Positions 4,126 to 24,783 of a stretch of 28,470 bases of DNA are shown piece by piece. The stretch spans positions 1 to 28,470 of IMG/VR virus record IMGVR_UViG_3300001256_000015. One strand, 5' to 3'. The DNA comes from a virus. A program made the translations under genes and the position numbers. Every line of letters starts with the position of its first letter. Position 1 is the stretch's first letter. The notes under the pieces were generated by a model. It was not told the DNA's origin, did no database searches, and saw only the letters and a list, made by a program, of their open reading frames with translations.

Positions 4126-5440
4126 CCGAGAGGCGGCCAGGGCACTCCAGATCCTCACCAAGGCGCTGCCGAAGCGCGAGTCCGATGCCCTAACCGCTTG
4201 GCTCGGCACGTTCTACGCCTACCAGCGCGAGTGGCTCCTCGACCTGAGCAGATTCTCGCTGGTCAACAAGTCGCGTCAGATTGGCGCCTCTCACACGTAC
4301 GCTGCGCAAGCGGCCATGTGGTCCGCGTTTCTTGGCGAGACCACCACCATCATCAGCATGGGCGAGCGCGAGGCGCTCGAGGTTGCCGACAAGGCCAAGC
4401 GGCATGCGAAAGTGCTGCACCAGCTGGGGTCGCAGCTCGCTCGCCCCACGCGGATAGCGTCTCAGGAGATCCGAACCGCCTCCGGCGGCAGGGTCATAGC
4501 GCTACCAAACAGCAGTGGTGGCCGATCCTACTCGGGCAACGTGATGCTCGACGAGGTGGCGTATTACCAGCGCCCCGAGAGCACATGGGACGGCGCCGCA
4601 GCCGTCGTCATGCACGGCTTTCGGCTGCGTGGTTTCTCGACTCCAAACGGGGTGGGAAACTTTTGGCATGATCTATGGGCCAAGGCGCCGGAGCTGGGAT
4701 ACCGGACCCACGAGATCACCATCGACCGAGCCCGCAACGACGGACTCAAGGTCGACGACGACGAGCTGTGGCGCATGGCGCGCGGCGATCCACGGCTGTT
4801 CGACCAGCTGTTCCGCTGCAAGTTTCTCGACGGCATCAACCAACTCATACCCGCTGGTGCCATCGACGCATGTAGCGTCCCAAACACCTACAAGCCGCCA
4901 CCGGGCGAGTGCTTCGCCGGCCTAGACCTTGGCCGCGATGCTGACCGGACAGAGCTAGTCATCATCCGCATCGCTCCGGACGAAAACGGAGTCATGCGCG
5001 CCTGGCACCAAGCCTCAGAGTTCTGCCGTCGCACGGACGATGCCGACATCGACCGACTGGCCCACATGGCTTTTGCTCCGCCTTACAGCTGCCGGCGGCT
5101 GGCCATCGACGCGACTGGGCTGGGCACGTTCCCGGCCGAGAGACTCCAGCGTCGCTATGGGCAGATGGCCGTTTGGCCGGTCCAGTTCACGCTCAAGTCA
5201 AAAGAAGAGCTGGCCACCACGATGCATCACGCATTCGTCAACGGCTGGGTTCGCATCCCCCAAGACGACACGACTCTGCGAGACGAAGTCGCTAGCCTGC
5301 GACGCGAGGTGACCACCGCTGGCAACGTCAGATACGACGCACCGAGAACGAGCGAGGGCCACGCCGACCGTGCATGGGCGCTCGCTATGGCACTGCACGC
5401 GACGTCGATGGTGGGCAGGAAATACGAGGCTCCCCGTTGA
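4115..5440 (+). CDS. terL: terminase large subunit
   Basis: The 441-residue packaging motor. It has the adenine-contact Q37 (YQREW), a Walker A-like loop NKSRQIGAS (51-59) of the variant type seen in Mu gp28-like terminases, Walker B VMLDE (143-147), a coupling-type segment GFSTPNG (173-179), and a C-terminal RNase H-like nuclease with acidic residues D271 (AGLDLGRDADRTE), D332 (LAIDATGLG) and D418 (GHADRAWALA). It pumps DNA into the prohead and cuts it at packaging events, binding the portal and the small subunit. Its start overlaps the small subunit gene. Its stop overlaps a TTG start of the portal gene. Length and motif spacing are normal and it looks intact. The Walker A lacks the classical GK[T/S], as in other members of this group. 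Confidence 0.95.
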   Translation: MRLSREAARALQILTKALPKRESDALTAWLGTFYAYQREWLLDLSRFSLVNKSRQIGASHTYAAQAAMWSAFLGETTTIISMGEREALEVADKAKRHAKVLHQLGSQLARPTRIASQEIRTASGGRVIALPNSSGGRSYSGNVMLDEVAYYQRPESTWDGAAAVVMHGFRLRGFSTPNGVGNFWHDLWAKAPELGYRTHEITIDRARNDGLKVDDDELWRMARGDPRLFDQLFRCKFLDGINQLIPAGAIDACSVPNTYKPPPGECFAGLDLGRDADRTELVIIRIAPDENGVMRAWHQASEFCRRTDDADIDRLAHMAFAPPYSCRRLAIDATGLGTFPAERLQRRYGQMAVWPVQFTLKSKEELATTMHHAFVNGWVRIPQDDTTLRDEVASLRREVTTAGNVRYDAPRTSEGHADRAWALAMALHATSMVGRKYEAPR

Positions 5441-14180: not shown

Positions 14181-14542
14181 TGCGACGATTCTGCGCCAAG
14201 GGGCGCCTGCTCGTACCCCACCCGCTTAAGCCGCGGCGCAAGGGCGAGGTGGCACACTACGTCAACCGCAAGGCGGTACAGGCTGACGACGGTCGGACTG
14301 CGTTTCCGGCCGTGTCGGAGCCGCTCGAGTACGACGAGGGCAGGCCTGAGCTGCGCGACATGGATCGTCGGCTCACCAAGCGAGTACGGCGCGACGGAGA
14401 CCTATGGCCGTACGACCGGGAGACGGCTGCGGCCTGCGGCGTCCCGTTCGTACCGGTCACGTTCAACGATGGGGAGTGGGTGGCCTCCAGCAACATCAAG
14501 CCCGCAGCCAAGTCGGCTGCGGCCAAGAAGGCGACTGACTGA
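14180..14542 (+). CDS. DUF2635-like protein preceding the sheath gene
   Basis: 120 residues from ATG 14180 (TAATG overlap). The features GRLLVPHP near the start, GRTAFPAVSEPLEYD in the middle and KRVRRDGDLWPYD resemble, in expanded form, the short Mu-like protein family (DUF2635) usually encoded just before the tail sheath; here the sheath gene starts at its stop (TGATG). The C-terminal 20 residues are Lys/Ala-rich (KPAAKSAAAKKATD). Its function is not established; a neck or sheath-initiation role is possible by position. The family link is moderate because this protein is about twice the usual length. Confidence 0.5.
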   Translation: MRRFCAKGRLLVPHPLKPRRKGEVAHYVNRKAVQADDGRTAFPAVSEPLEYDEGRPELRDMDRRLTKRVRRDGDLWPYDRETAAACGVPFVPVTFNDGEWVASSNIKPAAKSAAAKKATD

Positions 14543-16161
14543 TGGCCCAAATTCCTCTCTCTGGACTCCCGTCAACCTTCCGCGTTCCCGGGGGATACGT
14601 ACAGCTGCGCGTGGCGCAGGGCCCGTCCAGCGCATCGGCTGGCGAGCGCGATGTGTGCCTCGTGATGCCCAAGCTGGCGGCGTCTGGCGCATGGTCTGCG
14701 AACACCGAGTATCGGATCCGCTCTGAGCAAGATGCGATCGACGGCGCCGGTGAGGGATCGTTCCTTCACATCGCCGCACGAGAGTTTCTGAGGCACAACA
14801 AGAACTCAAAGCTCTACGCAGTCCCCTACCTGCCAAGCTCCGCCACCAGCCTGGAGACGGCCGACCTCGACATCGTGGTCACCTTTGCGTCTGGCTCCAA
14901 CCCCACGGCGGCTGGCATCGGAGCGGTCTACATCGGAGGGGAGGCGTGTTCGTTCAGCTACAGCACGGTGGACACCGCGACGACCATCGGCGACAGCATC
15001 GAGGCGGCCATCAACGCGCGGACCTGGCTTCCAGTCTCTGCGAGCAACACGAGTGGCACCGTTACGATCACCTGCAAGACTGCTGGTATCGCCGGTGGCG
15101 ACGGTACGCGGCCAGTCGTGCGCGTTCGGATGGAAGTTTCGCCGTCCACGAACGTCACGCTACAGTCGGAAAACAGCCTAACGTCCGACTTCCTGGGGAA
15201 CTCGTCCGGCCAGGCTGGAGTGGATGGCTCCACGACGGAGGCCTCCAATCTCAACACCGCCCTTTCGTCGCTCGACGTCACGCGTCGGTACTATGTCGTG
15301 ACCTCGACCTACATGTCAGATGGTAGCGACGAGGGCTGGGACTACGTCAACTCGCACGTGGTCACGAAGTCAGCCCCGAAGCAGGGGCTGCGAAGCATTG
15401 GCGTCGCCGCAGCGGTGCACACCCTGGCTGACGTCACCGGAGACGTGAACTCGCTCAACAGCGAGCGATTCCGCGTAGCGTGGCAGAAAAACAGCGACAA
15501 GCACCCTGCACAGATCGCAGCGGCCTATGCCGCTATCCTTCAAGCGGGCGAGTCACTCGACGCCGCGTACAACTTCGACGGCTTCCGAGGCGGGCGACAG
15601 GACATCACCAACGGGTGGTTCATCCCAGCGGCTGCGGACAACGGCGACTGGCCGGACACCGATGACGTGAATGACGCCATCAACGATGGGATCACCGTCA
15701 TCCAGTCCGACGACCTCGGCAGCTACATCGTCATGTCGTGCTGCACGCGTTCGAAGGACGCAGGTGGCACCGTGGACGACTTCCGAGCCACCGAGACGCA
15801 TCGCGTGTCCGCCGCAGACTTCGTACTCGACACGCTGCTCCTCCGGTTCCGACTCGACTTCGCCAACTTCAAGCTGGCCCCTGACCAGCTCCTCGCAGAT
15901 GGCGTGACAGTGGACCCTCGACAGCGGATCGCTTCGCGGACGACCACGCCATCCACGTTCAAGCCCTGGATGATCCGACAGCTGAACACATTCGGCCCCG
16001 CTGGCCGGGGGCTTCTCGTTCGGCTCACCGATACCGAGTCTGGGCTCGACGTACTTCTCGACCCCGACAACAGCGGACGGCTCGAAGTCGGCTTCCCGAT
16101 GTATGTCGTGAATCTTCTCCACCAGGCGACCATTCGCGCCGACGAAGCTACGGAGGGCTGA
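14542..16161 (+). CDS. contractile tail sheath protein (Mu gpL-like)
   Basis: A 539-residue protein that establishes the phage as a myovirus. The order DUF2635-like, sheath, tube, chaperone, tape measure is that of Mu-like tails. The N-terminus begins LSGLPSTFRVPGGYVQL and the C-terminal domain contains typical sheath segments (HRVSAADFVLDTLLLRFRL, RQRIASRTTTP, WMIRQLNTFGPAGRGLLV, ending in EVGFPMYVVNLLHQ). The middle (about 110-230) is a beta-rich surface domain with Thr/Ser-rich strands. Sheath subunits form a helical sleeve that contracts and drives the tube into the cell. Length is normal for the family (Mu gpL is about 495 residues). Its stop lies 3 nt before the tube gene. Confidence 0.92.
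   Translation: MAQIPLSGLPSTFRVPGGYVQLRVAQGPSSASAGERDVCLVMPKLAASGAWSANTEYRIRSEQDAIDGAGEGSFLHIAAREFLRHNKNSKLYAVPYLPSSATSLETADLDIVVTFASGSNPTAAGIGAVYIGGEACSFSYSTVDTATTIGDSIEAAINARTWLPVSASNTSGTVTITCKTAGIAGGDGTRPVVRVRMEVSPSTNVTLQSENSLTSDFLGNSSGQAGVDGSTTEASNLNTALSSLDVTRRYYVVTSTYMSDGSDEGWDYVNSHVVTKSAPKQGLRSIGVAAAVHTLADVTGDVNSLNSERFRVAWQKNSDKHPAQIAAAYAAILQAGESLDAAYNFDGFRGGRQDITNGWFIPAAADNGDWPDTDDVNDAINDGITVIQSDDLGSYIVMSCCTRSKDAGGTVDDFRATETHRVSAADFVLDTLLLRFRLDFANFKLAPDQLLADGVTVDPRQRIASRTTTPSTFKPWMIRQLNTFGPAGRGLLVRLTDTESGLDVLLDPDNSGRLEVGFPMYVVNLLHQATIRADEATEG
16152..16157 (+). promoter_or_regulatory. strong ribosome binding site of the tube gene
   Basis: GGAGGG lies 7 nt before ATG 16165 and inside the last sheath codons. 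It is the closest match to the consensus in the window, consistent with the tube being one of the most abundant tail proteins. Confidence 0.6.
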
Positions 16162-17549: not shown

Positions 17550-19628
17550 GTGGCCCTGCTCCAGTACGACATCAGCGTGGTGGGCGCGAAGAACGTCGAG
17601 CGAGCTCTTGCGAGCATCGAGCGGCGATTCGTGACCCACAACCGCAAGGTGTCGCGCACGCTTGGATCATCGGGCAAGCGGGCGGGGAATTACCGGAGCA
17701 ACGCTGGTTCGGATGCCCGCGCAGCGGCATCAGCTCAGCGCCGCGTTCACGGCGAGCGGATGCAGCAGATCTCGCAAGAAGAGCGAGCACGCATCCGTGC
17801 AGAGCACCGCATTCATCGAATTGCGCGGCGAAACCAGCGGCGACGCGCGCGATCAAATCGACGGGCGCGCGTAGCCGAAGAGCGCGCCACTGCACGCGCA
17901 CGCACTCAGTTCCGTGGCCAGGTCTACAGCAACATGCGAGGCACAGTAGGCAGCGTGGGGCGCTACGGACTCATGGCGGCATCGATGGGTGGCGGCCTTG
18001 CGCTGGCCGGGTCGCTGCAGTCGGAGCGCGACGTGGGCAAGCAGGCCATGGGGCTGGCCATCCAGGGGCAGCGGTCGCAGGGCAAGAGCCGCGGCGGGAC
18101 GGTGCAGGACCGATACAGGCGCGTCCGAGGCACCGTCGGTGCGCTGGGACAGATGGGATTCGACCGTGATGGCGTCGTTCGTGCGATGCGCGGATACCAG
18201 AGCATCACGGGCGACTTCGACACCGCGAACAAGCTCGCTGGCGAATTCAGCAAGCTGGCCCTCTCGTCAGGTGCAGACTACGGCGACGTCGGAAAAACTG
18301 CTGGCGAATTCGACATGGCACTCAAGGGCCAGGGCATGGGCGACGCCACGAAGCGGCGCGCTGCCGTCAAAGACCTGATGCGCACGGCCGCGGCCAGCGG
18401 CGCGATGGGATCTATTGAGTTCTCAGAGCTCGCTGGCATCTCTTCTCAGCTGGGCGCATCTGGCGCTCGCTACACTGACATGGACCCGGTTGAGCGCATC
18501 AAGTATGCGCTCAGCGCCGCGCAGCTGGCGAAGATGGGTGGGGCATCGAGCGGCGCCGAGGCTGGCACGGCGCTGATGCGGTCCAGTGACGACATTCTGA
18601 AAAATAGCGGAAAGTTCAAGAAGCTCGGCATCGACACGGGAACTTACGACGACGAAGGCGTGCGAACTGGCACCAAGAACCCGATCCAGCTGCTCGCGGA
18701 GACGCTCAAGAAAACGAAGGGCGACGTGGGTGTGATCTCTGATCTGTTCGGTATACGAGGAGCGAAGATCGGAGAGAACCTGATGACCCAGGCGAAGGCT
18801 CAGGGCGTCAGCATCGAAGACCTTCTCAAGCCCTTCATGAATGCCACGCTCACGGATGCGGAGCTGGATCGCGACACGGGCGCTGCGCTCAGCACAACGG
18901 ACGCAAAGATGACCGCGGTTGCCAACAAGTTCAACGAGCGCCTAGGCCCCAAGATGGCGCAGCTTCTCGAGAAGCTACTGCCCGCCTTTGAGAAGCTGTT
19001 TCCGGCTGTCGAGAAGGCCGCGGACATGTTCGTGCGATTCGTCGACTGGTTCTCCGACAACCCAGTCAAGGGGGTTGGGGCTGTCATTCTCGCCGCGGTG
19101 GCGAAAGACGTAGGCTCGGCCGCCATCGGGCAGACGATCAAGAGCATACTCATGAGGAGCGCGGCGCCAGGGATTGCTCCGAAGGGCGCACCTAACGGAA
19201 CTCCCACGGCGCTCACCACGAGCATTGCCGGCACGGCCGGCATCACGGCCGGCATCTATGGCGCCTACAAGGGGTCAAATATAGCTGGCGACGTCTACAA
19301 GGATGCCGGGTTCGGCGACACCCTGTCGAAGGGGCTTGGCGCGCTACAGGGATACGGCGCGGTCCTGACCGCCGGCACGTCAGCGCCCATAGCCGCGGCA
19401 AGAAGTGCCATCACCGGTGAGAGCTTTGAAAACGCGTTCTTCGGCGGCAACCCGGCGAGCGCCAAGATCGACACGAGCGGGCTGGACAAGATGGCGGCCC
19501 AGGCCCAGTCGGCGCTCACGAAGGCCGCTCAGGACCTGAGCAGCTCGGCAGAGGCGATCAAGTCCAACTCCAGTGGCAACGGCGCGACGGGCGTACCCAA
19601 CCGAGGCAACTCCCCAACGGCACCCTGA
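17550..19628 (+). CDS. tail tape measure protein
   Basis: A 692-residue protein, the longest here, from GTG 17550 after the chaperone. It has the composition expected of a tape measure: a long charged helical N-terminus (EERARIRAEHRIHRIARR, unusually Arg-rich over residues 20-130), hydrophobic helical stretches (GLMAASMGGGLALAG near 143; AGTAGITAGIYGAYKG near 560), Ala/Gly-rich helices and a Ser/Asn-rich end. The segment with EFSELAGISSQLGASGARY and AEAGTALMRS near residue 290-350 is like the conserved core of Mu/P2-type tape measures (gpT/gp42-like). It sets tail length and enters the channel before DNA. At roughly 0.15 nm per residue, a general rule, the tail would be about 100 nm. Confidence 0.9.
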   Translation: MALLQYDISVVGAKNVERALASIERRFVTHNRKVSRTLGSSGKRAGNYRSNAGSDARAAASAQRRVHGERMQQISQEERARIRAEHRIHRIARRNQRRRARSNRRARVAEERATARARTQFRGQVYSNMRGTVGSVGRYGLMAASMGGGLALAGSLQSERDVGKQAMGLAIQGQRSQGKSRGGTVQDRYRRVRGTVGALGQMGFDRDGVVRAMRGYQSITGDFDTANKLAGEFSKLALSSGADYGDVGKTAGEFDMALKGQGMGDATKRRAAVKDLMRTAAASGAMGSIEFSELAGISSQLGASGARYTDMDPVERIKYALSAAQLAKMGGASSGAEAGTALMRSSDDILKNSGKFKKLGIDTGTYDDEGVRTGTKNPIQLLAETLKKTKGDVGVISDLFGIRGAKIGENLMTQAKAQGVSIEDLLKPFMNATLTDAELDRDTGAALSTTDAKMTAVANKFNERLGPKMAQLLEKLLPAFEKLFPAVEKAADMFVRFVDWFSDNPVKGVGAVILAAVAKDVGSAAIGQTIKSILMRSAAPGIAPKGAPNGTPTALTTSIAGTAGITAGIYGAYKGSNIAGDVYKDAGFGDTLSKGLGALQGYGAVLTAGTSAPIAAARSAITGESFENAFFGGNPASAKIDTSGLDKMAAQAQSALTKAAQDLSSSAEAIKSNSSGNGATGVPNRGNSPTAP

Positions 19629-20533
19629 TGGATCCCAACGACGTCCTATCGCGGCTGCCCATCGCGTCGTGGCGGGGCATCGAGGTGCCACTGCTGTCGC
19701 AACAGGCCCGGTTCGATCAGGACCAGGCGCGCCACGTCTACCAGTTCCGAGACAACGCCGTCATCGAGGCGCTAGGCTCGCGCAACTGGGACATTCAGTG
19801 GGTGATCCCGTTTCGCCAGGGCATCGCCATCGAGCCGTTCAGCGAGCTGTTCTTCGATGTGCTCCCCCGGTTCCTCGATGCGGTACGAGACCGCTCGCCG
19901 GGCGACCTGTACGACCCCATCCTCGGATACTACCGATGCCGCGTCACGTCGGTGGACGAGCAGGCCGTCCCAGGCACGCGCGATGGCGTCGACGTCACGG
20001 TCGGATTCATCCATGACCCTGAGCCGGGCGAGCTAGATCTCCCTGGCGCCGACCTCTACAACATCCCATCGCTACAGCAGGGCGCTGGCGCCCTCGACGC
20101 TGAGGTAGGGGAGCTGTTTGAGTCCGACGACCGCCCGCCACCCGAGCCCACTGTGGACCCTCTGCGGGCCATCGCAGGGGCTGGGCAACAGATCACGCAG
20201 AACATCAACCGCGCACAGGCGAACGTGGCAAACTTCCAGAACCGCGTCCAGACGGTACAGGAAACGATCGAGGACCTCGAGCGGCCCGACCTCGCCCCGC
20301 TGGTGCGCTCCGCTCGACGGTTGCGGGCCAATGCTGAGTTCGCAAAGGATCGCGTGACGAATCCACTGGGGATCATTCGGAGGATCACCACCACGGTGGC
20401 CAAGAGCGTCGCAGCCGTCGCGGCCGAGCTGGCAGTGACGCCAGGGGACCTGCTCAAGCTCAACCCGAACCTGGCCACGTCGCCGCTCGTCCCGGCCGGT
20501 ACCGTCGTAACCTACGAGGACACCAGTGGCTGA
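19628..20533 (+). CDS. Mu gpN-like DNA circularization/baseplate protein with C-terminal LysM-like segment
   Basis: 301 residues starting with ATG 19628 on the tape measure stop (TGATG). The N-terminal 110 residues (SWRGIEVPLLSQQARFDQ, AVIEALGSRNWDIQWVIPF and onward) follow the DNA_circ_N-type domain at the start of Mu gpN, with strand-rich features and RCRVTSVDEQAVPGTRDG. Mu gpN is nearer 490 residues, so this is shorter. The middle is helical (about 178-225, NFQNRVQTVQETIEDLER). The last 40 residues (VAAVAAELAVTPGDLLKLN, then LVPAGTVVTY) have the two-helix/strand pattern of a LysM or gpX-like module. The protein would join tape measure, tube end and hub. The next gene overlaps by 8 nt. Confidence 0.7.
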   Translation: MDPNDVLSRLPIASWRGIEVPLLSQQARFDQDQARHVYQFRDNAVIEALGSRNWDIQWVIPFRQGIAIEPFSELFFDVLPRFLDAVRDRSPGDLYDPILGYYRCRVTSVDEQAVPGTRDGVDVTVGFIHDPEPGELDLPGADLYNIPSLQQGAGALDAEVGELFESDDRPPPEPTVDPLRAIAGAGQQITQNINRAQANVANFQNRVQTVQETIEDLERPDLAPLVRSARRLRANAEFAKDRVTNPLGIIRRITTTVAKSVAAVAAELAVTPGDLLKLNPNLATSPLVPAGTVVTYEDTSG

Positions 20534-21698
20534 TGCTGACAGCATCGACATTGTGCTCACTGATGAGGGGCGATCACTCTCGCAGTTCGTCAAATCGTAC
20601 ACCTTGGAGAGCGATTACACCGTCGCCACGGATGGGTGGACGGTCGATCTTTTCTCGCCCAACCCGGGTGACTTGCTAAACCTCGAGCTTCAGCCTATCG
20701 AGATTCTGATCAACGGGGCCTCGCAGGTTGTCGGCAGGGTCGAGGTAACCGACGCAGGCGGCGACGGGACGTCGATCACCATAGCCGGTCGCGACTACAT
20801 CGCGGACCTGGTCGAGTGCCACATCGATCCGTCATTCAAGACCAACCCCGGCGAGACGCTCGACTCTGTGCTGCTGCGCGCATGCGGCCCCGCTGGCATC
20901 AATGGCGTGGTTGACGATGCTGACGTTGGCATGCGAGACATCCGCAGTCGCTTTGGGACGCAAGGGCGCCAGCCCCCAGTGGGGATGGCCAAAAAAAGCG
21001 CAGACGAGCTGAAGGCCGAGCCAGGCATGGGGCTCTTCGACTGGTGCAACCGCGCCGCTGCTCGCATCGGCGGGGCGACCATCCAGCCAGGAATCGGGCG
21101 AAACCAGCTGGTGCTGTCCAAGCCTTTCTACGAGCAGACGCCCAGATATGGCATCACACGACGTCGGTTGAACGCGCGAGCGAACAGTAACAACGTCATT
21201 GAGACGCGCGCGACGCAGGATCTGTCTTCGTTCCCGACGCACGTTGTGGCGGTCGGCAAGGTGGGCAAGACCGGCCGCACCAAGCAGACCACTGGCGTCA
21301 GCACGGACGCGGCATGGCTCGGCTCTGACGCTGTCGCGGATCGCATCTACCGCGGGCGCCACAAGCCAGACCAGGGCCCTCGACCCGGCACCGAGCTCTA
21401 CCGACTCAGGTATCTACGCGATGAGGACTGTCGCACCGAGCTCGAGCTGAGCAACCTGGCTGCTCGCCACCTGAGCGAGCACCTGCGTCACAGCCTCGAT
21501 TACCGCGTGACCCTGAAAGGGTTCACTGACCCCGGCACGGGGGCAATCTGGGCAGTAGACACGATGCTCAGCGTCGATGACGAGGTGCGCGGCATTCGCG
21601 AACCTCTGTGGGTCGCCGCACGAACCTTTCGATACGCCGCTGGCAACGGAGCGACCACCGATCTCCGATGCTGGCGCCCGTGGTCCTACGTTATCTGA
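20526..21698 (+). CDS. baseplate hub protein (Mu gpP/gp44-like)
   Basis: 390 residues from GTG 20526, overlapping the gpN-like gene by 8 nt. Position between gpN-like and spike genes, length near that of Mu gpP (379) and the strand pattern fit the hub that holds the spike, equivalent to phage P2 gpD and T4 gp27. Visible features are an N-terminal beta domain (VKSYTLESDYTVATDGW, FSPNPGDLLNLELQP, ASQVVGRVEVTDAGGDG, SITIAGRDYIADLVEC) typical of gpP/gp27 barrels, a helical insert (DELKAEPGMGLFDWCNRAA) and a C-terminal barrel half (LDYRVTLKGFTDPGTG, WAVDTMLSVDDEVRGI). It ends before the 83-nt gap with the hairpin. Confidence 0.82.
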   Translation: MADADSIDIVLTDEGRSLSQFVKSYTLESDYTVATDGWTVDLFSPNPGDLLNLELQPIEILINGASQVVGRVEVTDAGGDGTSITIAGRDYIADLVECHIDPSFKTNPGETLDSVLLRACGPAGINGVVDDADVGMRDIRSRFGTQGRQPPVGMAKKSADELKAEPGMGLFDWCNRAAARIGGATIQPGIGRNQLVLSKPFYEQTPRYGITRRRLNARANSNNVIETRATQDLSSFPTHVVAVGKVGKTGRTKQTTGVSTDAAWLGSDAVADRIYRGRHKPDQGPRPGTELYRLRYLRDEDCRTELELSNLAARHLSEHLRHSLDYRVTLKGFTDPGTGAIWAVDTMLSVDDEVRGIREPLWVAARTFRYAAGNGATTDLRCWRPWSYVI

Positions 21699-21781: not shown

Positions 21782-22528
21782 ATGCGCCGACCAGAAGTAG
21801 CCCACATTCGCGAGGGCGCTCGCGACCAGACCACGAACCTGCCGACCTACAACGCCTACTTGCCCATCGACGGGCCAGGCGACGAGGAGCGGTTCGGGGA
21901 CATCGACGCCATCCAGGCGCTGGGCGTATCCTCGATTCCCTTCCCAGAGACCGATGAGGGATACGCCGAGGGCGTCGTGCTGCGCGGCTGTGGCGGCTCC
22001 GTGGGATGCGTGGTTGGTGGCCGTGACGAGCGATGCGCCAGCGTGTACGCAAGCCTGAAACCCGGCGACTCGTGCCTCCACAGTACTGACCCTGACGCGG
22101 CGGCGCAGTTCCAAGCCAAAGCCACGCGCCAAGCCGTCATGCTCACTACCGCAAGCGATGGCAGCACGATGCTGAACATCCTCGACGGCAAGAATGACAA
22201 GGTTCAGATCGCAGCGTTTGGTGGCATCATCCAGATGACTCCAGACGCAATCACCATCACCGGGCCTGGCGGTGCCAGCATCATCATGCAGGGCGACACC
22301 GTCGTTGTGCAGGGCAAACTGAGTTCATCCGCTGGAGCGGCCCAGCCGATCATGCTCGCAAGCCCGTTCGCTTCCACCTTCGCGGCGGGCGTGGCTACGG
22401 CCGTCTCGTCGCTTGGGGCAGCGGCGCCGGCCACGACCACCCAGGTGGCAGCCGCTATCTCTGCGCTGGGGTTGGCTGTCGCAAACGGGCTGTCAGCCTA
22501 CAGCACCAAGGTCACCAGCGGGCAATGA
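21782..22528 (+). CDS. baseplate spike protein (Mu gp45/P2 gpV-like)
   Basis: A 248-residue protein with the gpV layout. Residues about 35-105 correspond to an OB-fold (FGDIDAIQALGVSSIPF, EGVVLRGCGGSVGCVVGG), and 112-175 to a strand-repeat that would form a trimeric beta-helix (MLNILDGKNDKVQIAAF, GIIQMTPDAITITGPGG, ASIIMQGDTVVVQGKL). The last 70 residues are Ala/Ser-rich (ATAVSSLGAAAPATTT) and differ from standard gpV ends. The spike trimer is the membrane-piercing tip of the tube. It has several Cys (GCGGSVGC, ERCASV, DSCLH). A hairpin lies just upstream, and the stop overlaps the next gene by ATGA. Confidence 0.85.
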   Translation: MRRPEVAHIREGARDQTTNLPTYNAYLPIDGPGDEERFGDIDAIQALGVSSIPFPETDEGYAEGVVLRGCGGSVGCVVGGRDERCASVYASLKPGDSCLHSTDPDAAAQFQAKATRQAVMLTTASDGSTMLNILDGKNDKVQIAAFGGIIQMTPDAITITGPGGASIIMQGDTVVVQGKLSSSAGAAQPIMLASPFASTFAAGVATAVSSLGAAAPATTTQVAAAISALGLAVANGLSAYSTKVTSGQ

Positions 22529-22830
22529 GCTGCAACCTCACACTGCCTATTCCGGCGCTCCCGATTCCGTCTCTGTCGATCCCGACCTTCCCAGCGCTTC
22601 CCATCTTCAGCTTTGACACGGACCTCCCTGGCATCCCGCCCGTGCCCATTCCGGCACTCCCGATCCCGTCTCTGTCAATCCCCCCCTTCCCGTCGCTACC
22701 ATCTTTCTCGTTCGACTTGGGCCTGCCTGGGATCCCGCCGATCCCCATCCCAGCCCTCCCGATCCCGTCGCTCACTACACCCGCCTTCCCGTCGCTGCCA
22801 CTCTTCGACATTCCCTGCCCGTTAGACTGA
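22525..22830 (+). CDS. Pro-rich protein made of 33-residue repeats, coupled to the spike
   Basis: A 101-residue protein whose ATG overlaps the spike stop (ATGA). Apart from a head (MSCNLTL) and a tail (DIPCPLD) it consists of two full and one shortened copy of a 33-residue unit beginning PIPALPIPSL and continuing with FPxLPxFSFD, then LPGIPP. Copies start at residues 8, 41 and 74. About 30% of residues are Pro and most others are Ile, Leu, Phe or Ser; there are almost no charged residues apart from a few Asp. It has no signal peptide and no known catalytic motif. The Pro-every-3 spacing suggests an extended or polyproline-type fibre. Cys appear only near each end (C3, C98). By position it could act with the spike, for example as a tip or sleeve. 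I recall similar Pro-rich spike-adjacent genes in other phages but know no function. Confidence 0.75.
   Translation: MSCNLTLPIPALPIPSLSIPTFPALPIFSFDTDLPGIPPVPIPALPIPSLSIPPFPSLPSFSFDLGLPGIPPIPIPALPIPSLTTPAFPSLPLFDIPCPLD
22546..22827 (+). repeat. three tandem ~99-bp in-frame repeats
   Basis: Copies at 22546-22644, 22645-22743 and 22744-22827 (the last shortened by 5 codons) encode the 33-residue units. DNA similarity between copies is evident in the stretches encoding PIPALPIPSL (CCCATTCCGGCACTCCCGAT against CCCATCCCAGCCCTCCCGAT), with differences mainly at third positions. This means the repeat is old enough to have diverged synonymously and is held at protein level. Confidence 0.85.
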
Positions 22831-22831
22831 C

Positions 22832-23272
22832 ATGCCTGTCACTGGTGCTGCCGTTGGACTCGACCCCATGGGCTTCGCGCCCATCACGGAGGCCACAAAG
22901 CCTGAGCGCATCGAGGGACCCCTCGTGCGTCATGTCTCGCCGGGCACGGGCGACTATGAGCTTACAAGCGGCGGGCGGCGATTCAGGCGCACAACGTCAA
23001 TCCGGCAGCGCGTCTACCTCGCGCTTGCTACTCGACGCGGCGAGTCGCCGACGCTCCAGGGCTTCGGACTCACACTGCCAGGCCGCATCAACGACGGGGC
23101 CATCAAGGGCGAGGTGCGGCGCGCGCTCAACCAGCTGGCCGTAGTCGAGCAGGCCATCAGTATCAGCAGCATTGTGGTGACCGACGACGGAACGCTCGGC
23201 CGCATCAACATCCACATCGTCTACGTGCCCGTCGGGCAGCGCGAGACAGAGTCCGTGACCTTCACGCTATGA
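22832..23272 (+). CDS. baseplate wedge protein (Mu gp46/T4 gp25-like)
   Basis: 146 residues starting one base after the repeat-protein stop. The centre and C-terminal part follow the gp25/gpW lysozyme-like fold family: SIRQRVYLALATRRGESPTL (residues 51-70, the helix after the initial strand where a conserved L-T-GE-P-L pattern is usual), then IKGEVRRALNQLAVVEQAI and a strand pair RINIHIVYVPVG. These wedge proteins join baseplate to sheath initiation. Order (spike, repeat protein, gp46, gp47) matches Mu with one extra gene. The stop overlaps the J gene ATG (ATGA). Confidence 0.85.
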   Translation: MPVTGAAVGLDPMGFAPITEATKPERIEGPLVRHVSPGTGDYELTSGGRRFRRTTSIRQRVYLALATRRGESPTLQGFGLTLPGRINDGAIKGEVRRALNQLAVVEQAISISSIVVTDDGTLGRINIHIVYVPVGQRETESVTFTL

Positions 23273-24783
23273 CCATCCTCAAGGCCGGCCAGACTTACAC
23301 TCCGCGCAACTCTGCGGAGATCGCGCAGGACTTCCGCGATGACATATTGCTGGAAGCGCGCGCGGCAGGCTACGACGACCCGCCCATCGAGCCTGGCACG
23401 GACTGGTGGATCCTGTCGCGCGCCCTCGGCGCTATGGCCATCCTCGTGCACGGCAACGTGAGGGTTAGCGAAGACAACTCCGACGTCTTTAGCGCCTCCG
23501 GCGAGGCTCTGGACAATATCCGCGAGGCCGAGGGGCTGCGCATCGTCCCGCCGGCGCCGTCACGTGGCAGCATAGACTGCGACGTAGTAAACACCGTCGT
23601 GGTGCCCGCTGGACTACAGGGAACGCTTCCGAATGGCAAGCGATTCAAGACTACCGCGACGAAAACGCTTGAGCCGTCCCAGGATATCACCCTACCGGTC
23701 ATCACGATCGACACGGGCAAGGATACTCGCACCCCCGGGGGGACGACGGGCCTGTCACTCGTCTCCCCGCCGGTCAACCTTGGCACCAAGGCTACGGTCA
23801 GCACGGGCGACCCGCTCACGGGCGGCACCGATGGCGAGAGCGACGAGCAGAAGCGCGCGCGCATCCTGAACAAGAGGCAGAACCTGCCAGCTGCCGGCAA
23901 CTGGGCGGCCATTCGTCAAACCGGTCTCGAGGTGTCGAGCGCGGTGCAGGGGATCTTCGTCTACCCCGCGCTCGGCGGGCCGGGATCGCGCAAAGTCGTG
24001 GTCACGCGTGACATCGACACCGTCGTCAACGACTACTCGCGCGTCCCTGCCACCGACCTCGTCAACAAGGTCCGCACCGCGCTGTTCGCCTTCCTTCCGA
24101 GTGAGACAGAGACCGTGGTGCAAGCCGTGGCCGAGGAGACCACCAACGTCACGGTGCAGCTCACCATCCCCGAGTCTGTCGGGGCCGGTGGCAACGGGCA
24201 AGGGTGGGTGGACGACGCCCCGTGGCCGCCGCTCAACAGCGCGGACCAGGTCACCATAACGAGCATCACTGGTGCGAGCATCACGGTAGACGCCACGACC
24301 GCGACGAGCCCCATCGCGGGCAACACCACCGTCGCTTGGTGGAGCACCGTCGATCAGCGATTCTACACGCGTGAGGTCATCTCCGTGTCGGGGTCGTCTG
24401 GCGCATGGGTGCTCGGCCTTGACGCGGCACTGGTCGATAGCAACGGCAGCCCAGCGTCGACCGGCGAGTACATCAGCCCCGCAGCACTCAACATCGAGCA
24501 GTACGGCATCACGTTTCGCGACTTCATGCGAAACCTCGGCCCAGGTGAGAATACCAGCGACAGCAACCGGCTCCCGAGGGCAGCACGCCACCCGTTCACC
24601 GACGACGAGTGGCCCAGCGAGCTCGGGCTACGCGCACTCAAGGCGATGCTCGATGATCACACCGAGATCAGCGATGCCGCCTGGGTCAACCGCAGCAAGT
24701 CGTCCCCAACTGTGCCTGGCAGCGTAAGCACCGCGCCCAACATCCTCACCCTGAACCACTTCGGGATCTACAAGGACACCTGA
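23269..24783 (+). CDS. baseplate wedge protein (Mu gp47/P2 gpJ-like)
   Basis: 504 residues. The N-terminal two thirds follow baseplate J proteins: DWWILSRALGAMAILVHGNV (residues 44-63), LDNIREAEGLRIVPPAPSRG (82-101), VPAGLQGTLPNGKRFKT (109-125), then VNLGTKATVSTGDPLTGGTD and SDEQKRARILNKRQN. The C-terminal part is longer than in Mu gp47 (about 360 residues) because of a roughly 95-residue beta-rich stretch (about 305-400, TITSITGASITVDATTAT and REVISVSGSSGAWVLGL) before the closing helices. J proteins form the wedge ring that triggers sheath contraction. Both ends overlap neighbouring genes, so the reading frame is well supported. Confidence 0.92.
   Translation: MTILKAGQTYTPRNSAEIAQDFRDDILLEARAAGYDDPPIEPGTDWWILSRALGAMAILVHGNVRVSEDNSDVFSASGEALDNIREAEGLRIVPPAPSRGSIDCDVVNTVVVPAGLQGTLPNGKRFKTTATKTLEPSQDITLPVITIDTGKDTRTPGGTTGLSLVSPPVNLGTKATVSTGDPLTGGTDGESDEQKRARILNKRQNLPAAGNWAAIRQTGLEVSSAVQGIFVYPALGGPGSRKVVVTRDIDTVVNDYSRVPATDLVNKVRTALFAFLPSETETVVQAVAEETTNVTVQLTIPESVGAGGNGQGWVDDAPWPPLNSADQVTITSITGASITVDATTATSPIAGNTTVAWWSTVDQRFYTREVISVSGSSGAWVLGLDAALVDSNGSPASTGEYISPAALNIEQYGITFRDFMRNLGPGENTSDSNRLPRAARHPFTDDEWPSELGLRALKAMLDDHTEISDAAWVNRSKSSPTVPGSVSTAPNILTLNHFGIYKDT

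Follow-up and report, generated by a model that had tools for sequence, protein, structure and literature searches.

A proline-rich protein of three repeat units encoded directly after the tail spike gene: a proposed single-chain cap for contractile-tail spikes that lack an HxH tip

The window analysed here, the whole stretch of 28,470 nucleotides making up positions 1 to 28,470 of the IMG/VR virus record IMGVR_UViG_3300001256_000015, carries a small gene (22525..22830, plus strand) directly after its central spike gene, and this gene encodes a Pro-rich protein of 101 aa, one of 24 distinct homologues at the same locus. Since the gene is conserved beside the spike in every complete relative found and consists of exactly three units, the protein is probably a single-chain cap with pseudo-three-fold symmetry at the apex of the trimeric spike, where it would replace the HxH metal tip of other spikes. 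We hold this reading with reasonable, though not strong, confidence.

The sheath gene at 14542..16161 (plus strand, PHROG 165, E 6.1e-45) shows that the phage tail is contractile, and the order of the baseplate genes, all on the plus strand, is Mu-like. A DNA_circ_N baseplate protein of the Mu gp43 type (19628..20533; PF07157, E 2.7e-7) is followed by a baseplate hub of the Mu gp44/gpP type (20526..21698; PHROG 177, E 3.7e-18), the 248-aa central spike of the Mu gp45/P2 gpV type (21782..22528), the Pro-rich gene, a gp25-like baseplate wedge in the Mu gp46 position (22832..23272; PHROG 43, E 5.9e-4, and a weak GPW_gp25 match) and a baseplate J-like wedge in the Mu gp47 position (23269..24783; PF04865, E 4.7e-22). 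In Mu and four Mu-type relatives the annotated wedge gene stands directly after the spike gene, with no Pro-rich gene between spike and gp46, and the first-pass annotation, made from the sequence of the window alone, was thus right to call the gene an extra one relative to the Mu-type order.

That annotation had also described a 101-residue protein of three Pro-rich 33-residue units, with a Cys near each end and an ATGA overlap coupling it to the spike gene, all of which holds. At a lag of 33 residues the protein matches itself at 45 of 68 positions (66%), while the highest value over all lags in 300 shuffles was 34%, and Tandem Repeats Finder reports a repeat at 22544-22805 with a period of 99 and 2.6 copies. 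Register analysis places unit 1 at residues 3-35 (22531..22629, plus strand) with the invariant Cys3 at its start, unit 2 at residues 36-68 (22630..22728, plus strand) and unit 3 at residues 69-101 (22729..22827, plus strand) with C98-P-L-D at its end. With Cys3 taken as its start, the chain makes up exactly three units, so that the register closes exactly (99 = 3 x 33) and the array is not ragged; its cysteines are residues 3 and 98. The ATGA is the overlap of the start codon of 22525-22830 with the stop codon of the spike ORF 21782-22528. The dN/dS values between units of the gene (0.16-0.26) mean that, per site, synonymous changes outnumber replacements, which argues for protein-level constraint on the plus-strand frame and against the array being a recent duplication of the DNA. 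The near-absence of charge that had been pointed out is real in the window protein (no Arg or Lys and five acidic residues), but the lack of basic residues is not general, as the relatives have 2-11 Arg/Lys.

Relatives were collected by spike-based scans of IMG/VR, GenBank phages and GTDB contigs. Together with one relative first found independently of the spike, this gave 24 distinct homologues including that of the window. One is from a GenBank phage, one from a MAG contig and the rest from IMG/VR contigs; the relatives are mostly metagenomic, and their spikes are 30-80% identical in pairs. The Pro-rich gene lies directly after the spike gene in every relative whose contig runs past the spike, the contig L005/L024 stopping at the spike. 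At the loci examined the gene starts between 4 bases inside and 7 bases after the spike stop codon, and about half of the 24 homologues have the 4-base start/stop overlap. The first-pass annotation had let its case depend on a repeat gene being conserved at this locus, and the gene is kept there in the 24 homologues. Two DNA pattern scans independent of the spike led to the Pro-rich gene at the spike locus again, together with three chance matches, and the homologue in L050 was first found by such a pattern. A tblastn search of phages with the Pro-rich protein gave no match, probably owing to low-complexity filtering or composition; a pattern search for relatives with the Pro-rich protein alone gave 101 pattern matches, none of which was confirmed, and the alignment of the homologues is too degenerate for a pattern scan. 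The start codons of most homologues are often GTG or TTG and not ATG, and it may be speculated that such starts keep translation of the gene below that of the spike, which a 1:3 ratio would call for.

Among named records the family is rare, being present in one GenBank phage and one Chloroflexi MAG contig. Phage cta39025 (MW202476.1) has a homologous three-unit gene after its spike gene (L004:4645-4956, corresponding to 4938-5249 of MW202476.1). The deposited hypothetical protein UOF77303.1 (4940-5395) is in another reading frame, which indicates that the three-unit gene was missed in this record. The only GTDB match is the 21-kb contig JAKAHU010000028.1 (L011) of the Chloroflexi MAG, and a profile search of 301 genomes from the same phylum found the gene in this MAG and in none of the 300 others, which suggests that a phage contig may have been mis-binned.

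The number of units is three in all 24 homologues. Their best autocorrelation lag is 32-36 residues, every protein is about three lags long (about 97-109 aa), and 22 of them measure 2.993 ± 0.041 units when counted from their first Cys to their last residue. The lag periodicity is weak in L020, where it is within the shuffle range, and in L023 and L050, where it is just above it, and all three still align. The earlier suggestion that the number of repeats could be tuned to length is therefore unsupported. Both end cysteines are invariant among the homologues, and 20 of the 21 aligned homologues have no other Cys. In the repeat register the two are 2-8 residues apart, at the point where a three-unit ring would have its seam; judged from the sequences, the Pro-rich chain appears to end where such a ring would have to rejoin its own start.

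The units of one protein resemble each other more than they resemble their counterparts, with a mean core identity of 67% within a protein versus 46% for the same position between proteins, and 49 of the 66 units are most similar to another unit of their own protein. Where phages differ in unit length, the difference tends to recur in the other units of the protein (L006 and L008 are examples). Identical contacts with a homotrimer would enforce such likeness, but gene conversion by itself could produce it too.

The gene upstream of the Pro-rich gene is, by sequence comparison and modelling, a central spike with a predicted OB fold and needle strands. Pfam and PHROG gave nothing notable for the ORF 21782-22528. 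Alignment of the window spike family with Mu gp45 by hhalign gave E 3.6e-4 at a probability of 37% in the OB region, and adding more Mu-type sequences did not improve the match. The AF2 model of the window spike has a pLDDT of 72, and in Foldseek its top 13 matches are all spikes (phi92, AlgoCIS, Anabaena CIS, PhiTE, R2 pyocin and phiKZ), of which only the first has E < 0.001. Other structure matches with high Z (CPAP G-box, OspA) were rejected as unrelated, as they fit only the repeated strands of the needle.

All eight Mu/P2-type spikes compared (Mu gp45 and seven relatives) carry a C-terminal HxH, while none of 21 spikes of the clade of the window spike does, and the Pro-rich gene thus appears where the usual tip is missing. 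The window spike has a long, Ala-rich C-terminus without HxH, in line with the atypical end that had been noted before. This Ala-rich extension (22310-22525) is not general; most relatives have a shorter Gly/Pro-rich tail, e.g. GPPTGSPGGPASVPL, and the spikes of L006 and L028 have other long C-terminal ends.

The tips of contractile tails known so far are described as metal-sealed, either by iron at the HxH of the spike or by a PAAR/gp5.4 cap (PMC10715212). The VgrG trimer carries one PAAR protein as its cap, fitted through pseudo-trimeric symmetry, and gp5.4 caps T4 gp5 likewise; P2 and phi92 tie the ends of their own spikes (PMC10715212). The HxH is reported to coordinate Fe in the P2, phi92 and Mu spikes (PMC10811340); the title of the Mu reference cited in that paper speaks of bound calcium. 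No description of a Pro-rich three-unit tip was found in the open-access literature.

In the arrangement we propose, one chain of three near-identical units of about 33 residues would close into a pseudo-three-fold cone or prism, each unit docking on one subunit of the homotrimeric needle. The chain ends would meet at the seam, where the two invariant cysteines could form a disulfide or share a ligand; many disulfides can occur in virion proteins, as in phage Milano (PMC10811340). Such a cap would take the place of the metal-bound HxH tip that spikes of the Mu, P2, phi92 and R2 type make from their own C-termini, and would work like PAAR or gp5.4 without being a PAAR protein. That the protein sits at the apex in a 1:3 ratio to the spike chains, closes on itself through a disulfide and has a role in piercing or spike assembly is inferred from these patterns. 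Of the functions first suggested for the gene, a tip on the spike fits best.

The Pro-rich protein fits a PAAR-like role by analogy: it has the right number of units and the right size, is linked to the spike gene and complements a spike without HxH. Like PAAR of T6SS and eCIS and T4 gp5.4, it is a small separate protein (EAEC PAAR has 88 aa), and like them it would cap a trimeric spike as one pseudo-three-fold chain (PMC10715212). It differs in having Pro-rich 33-residue units with a sequence of their own and two invariant end cysteines, and in lacking both a PAAR Pfam match and the His/Cys metal set. No PAAR family was among the Pfam matches of 21 members at E <= 1, a PDB profile search gave no match, and no profile link to PAAR or to any solved protein was found. 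Each homologue contains 0-1 His and two Cys, or three Cys in the case of L009, which is too few for the sites of 3 His + 1 Cys or of 2 Cys + His (PMC10715212); together with the missing PAAR profile, this makes the protein a functional analogue of PAAR at most. The HxH tip of Mu gp45, P2 gpV, phi92 and R2 pyocin shares the proposed place, the apex of a gp45/gpV-type spike, but is formed by the three C-termini of the spike itself around a metal, whereas here the spikes are HxH-less (0/21) and a separate gene is present. The PAAR-like IglG of the Francisella T6SS is likewise an alternative tip family of a contractile system, but has four metal-binding Cys (PMC10715212) and no Pfam link to the Pro-rich family.

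Four other functions were considered. The protein could be a spike-specific assembly chaperone that holds the hydrophobic needle end or the Gly/Pro-rich tail while the spike folds and is no part of the mature virion. The gene is indeed small, translationally coupled and always adjoining the spike, and there are noncanonical secretion-system spike tips that depend on a chaperone (PMC11883445); however, this would leave unexplained the HxH-less spike, the closure at exactly three units and the homogenisation of the units, and we regard it as unlikely. Somewhat less likely still is the elongated needle or sleeve proposed in the first-pass annotation, an open fold with possibly three chains per spike. 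Its appeal lies in the high Pro content and the alternation of Pro and hydrophobic residues, which suit an extended structure, and in the lack of a compact fold from AlphaFold2, which for the Pro-rich protein by itself yielded a model of low confidence (pLDDT 55, pTM 0.12) that offers no structural support for a closed chain either. Yet the copy number of open arrays usually changes, and here length and repeat number are constant (3 units, about 97-109 aa) across spikes of 30-80% identity.

The protein could also act as a linker or adaptor that joins the spike to the gp25-like wedge, as in the window its gene lies between the genes for these two. This idea is weakened by seven relatives in which 0.8-1.6 kb of inserted DNA with a minus-strand ORF parts the Pro-rich gene from the gp25-like gene while the attachment to the spike is kept (L002:3930-5485, L004:4957-5886 and L008:4954-5774, and also in L013, L015, L017 and L028). 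The insert always follows the Pro-rich gene and never comes between it and the spike gene; the window, L006, L009, L010 and L050 are without it. Three units, moreover, match a trimer and not the six-fold wedge ring, and the linker must be considered very improbable. Equally hard to credit is a hydrophobic membrane-acting protein, outer-membrane perturbing or lysis-related and unconnected with the spike apex, which the hydrophobic composition and the nearly uncharged window member would suit, but which agrees poorly with the strict linkage to the spike gene, the up to 11 Arg/Lys in relatives and the absence of a signal peptide or transmembrane helix apparent by eye.

The longest minus-strand ORF of the insert often has a hydrophobic start and a lipobox-like Cys, followed in several cases by a Gly/Ser/Ala-rich linker, and is a candidate for lysogenic-conversion or superinfection-exclusion cargo.

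It is tempting to go further and regard the single-chain cap as a third way of closing the spike of a contractile tail: a metal-free, Pro-rich chain of three units with a Cys-Cys seam, unrelated to PAAR, whose units co-evolve through contact with the homotrimer. We offer this broader view only tentatively, as somewhat less probable than not. If true, a conserved cap family without the residues of the known metal sites would have solved independently the problem of seating a single chain on a trimer, would test the need for metal in piercing and would be a new small adaptor for engineered contractile systems. The family also allows uncultured phages with HxH-less spikes to be annotated.
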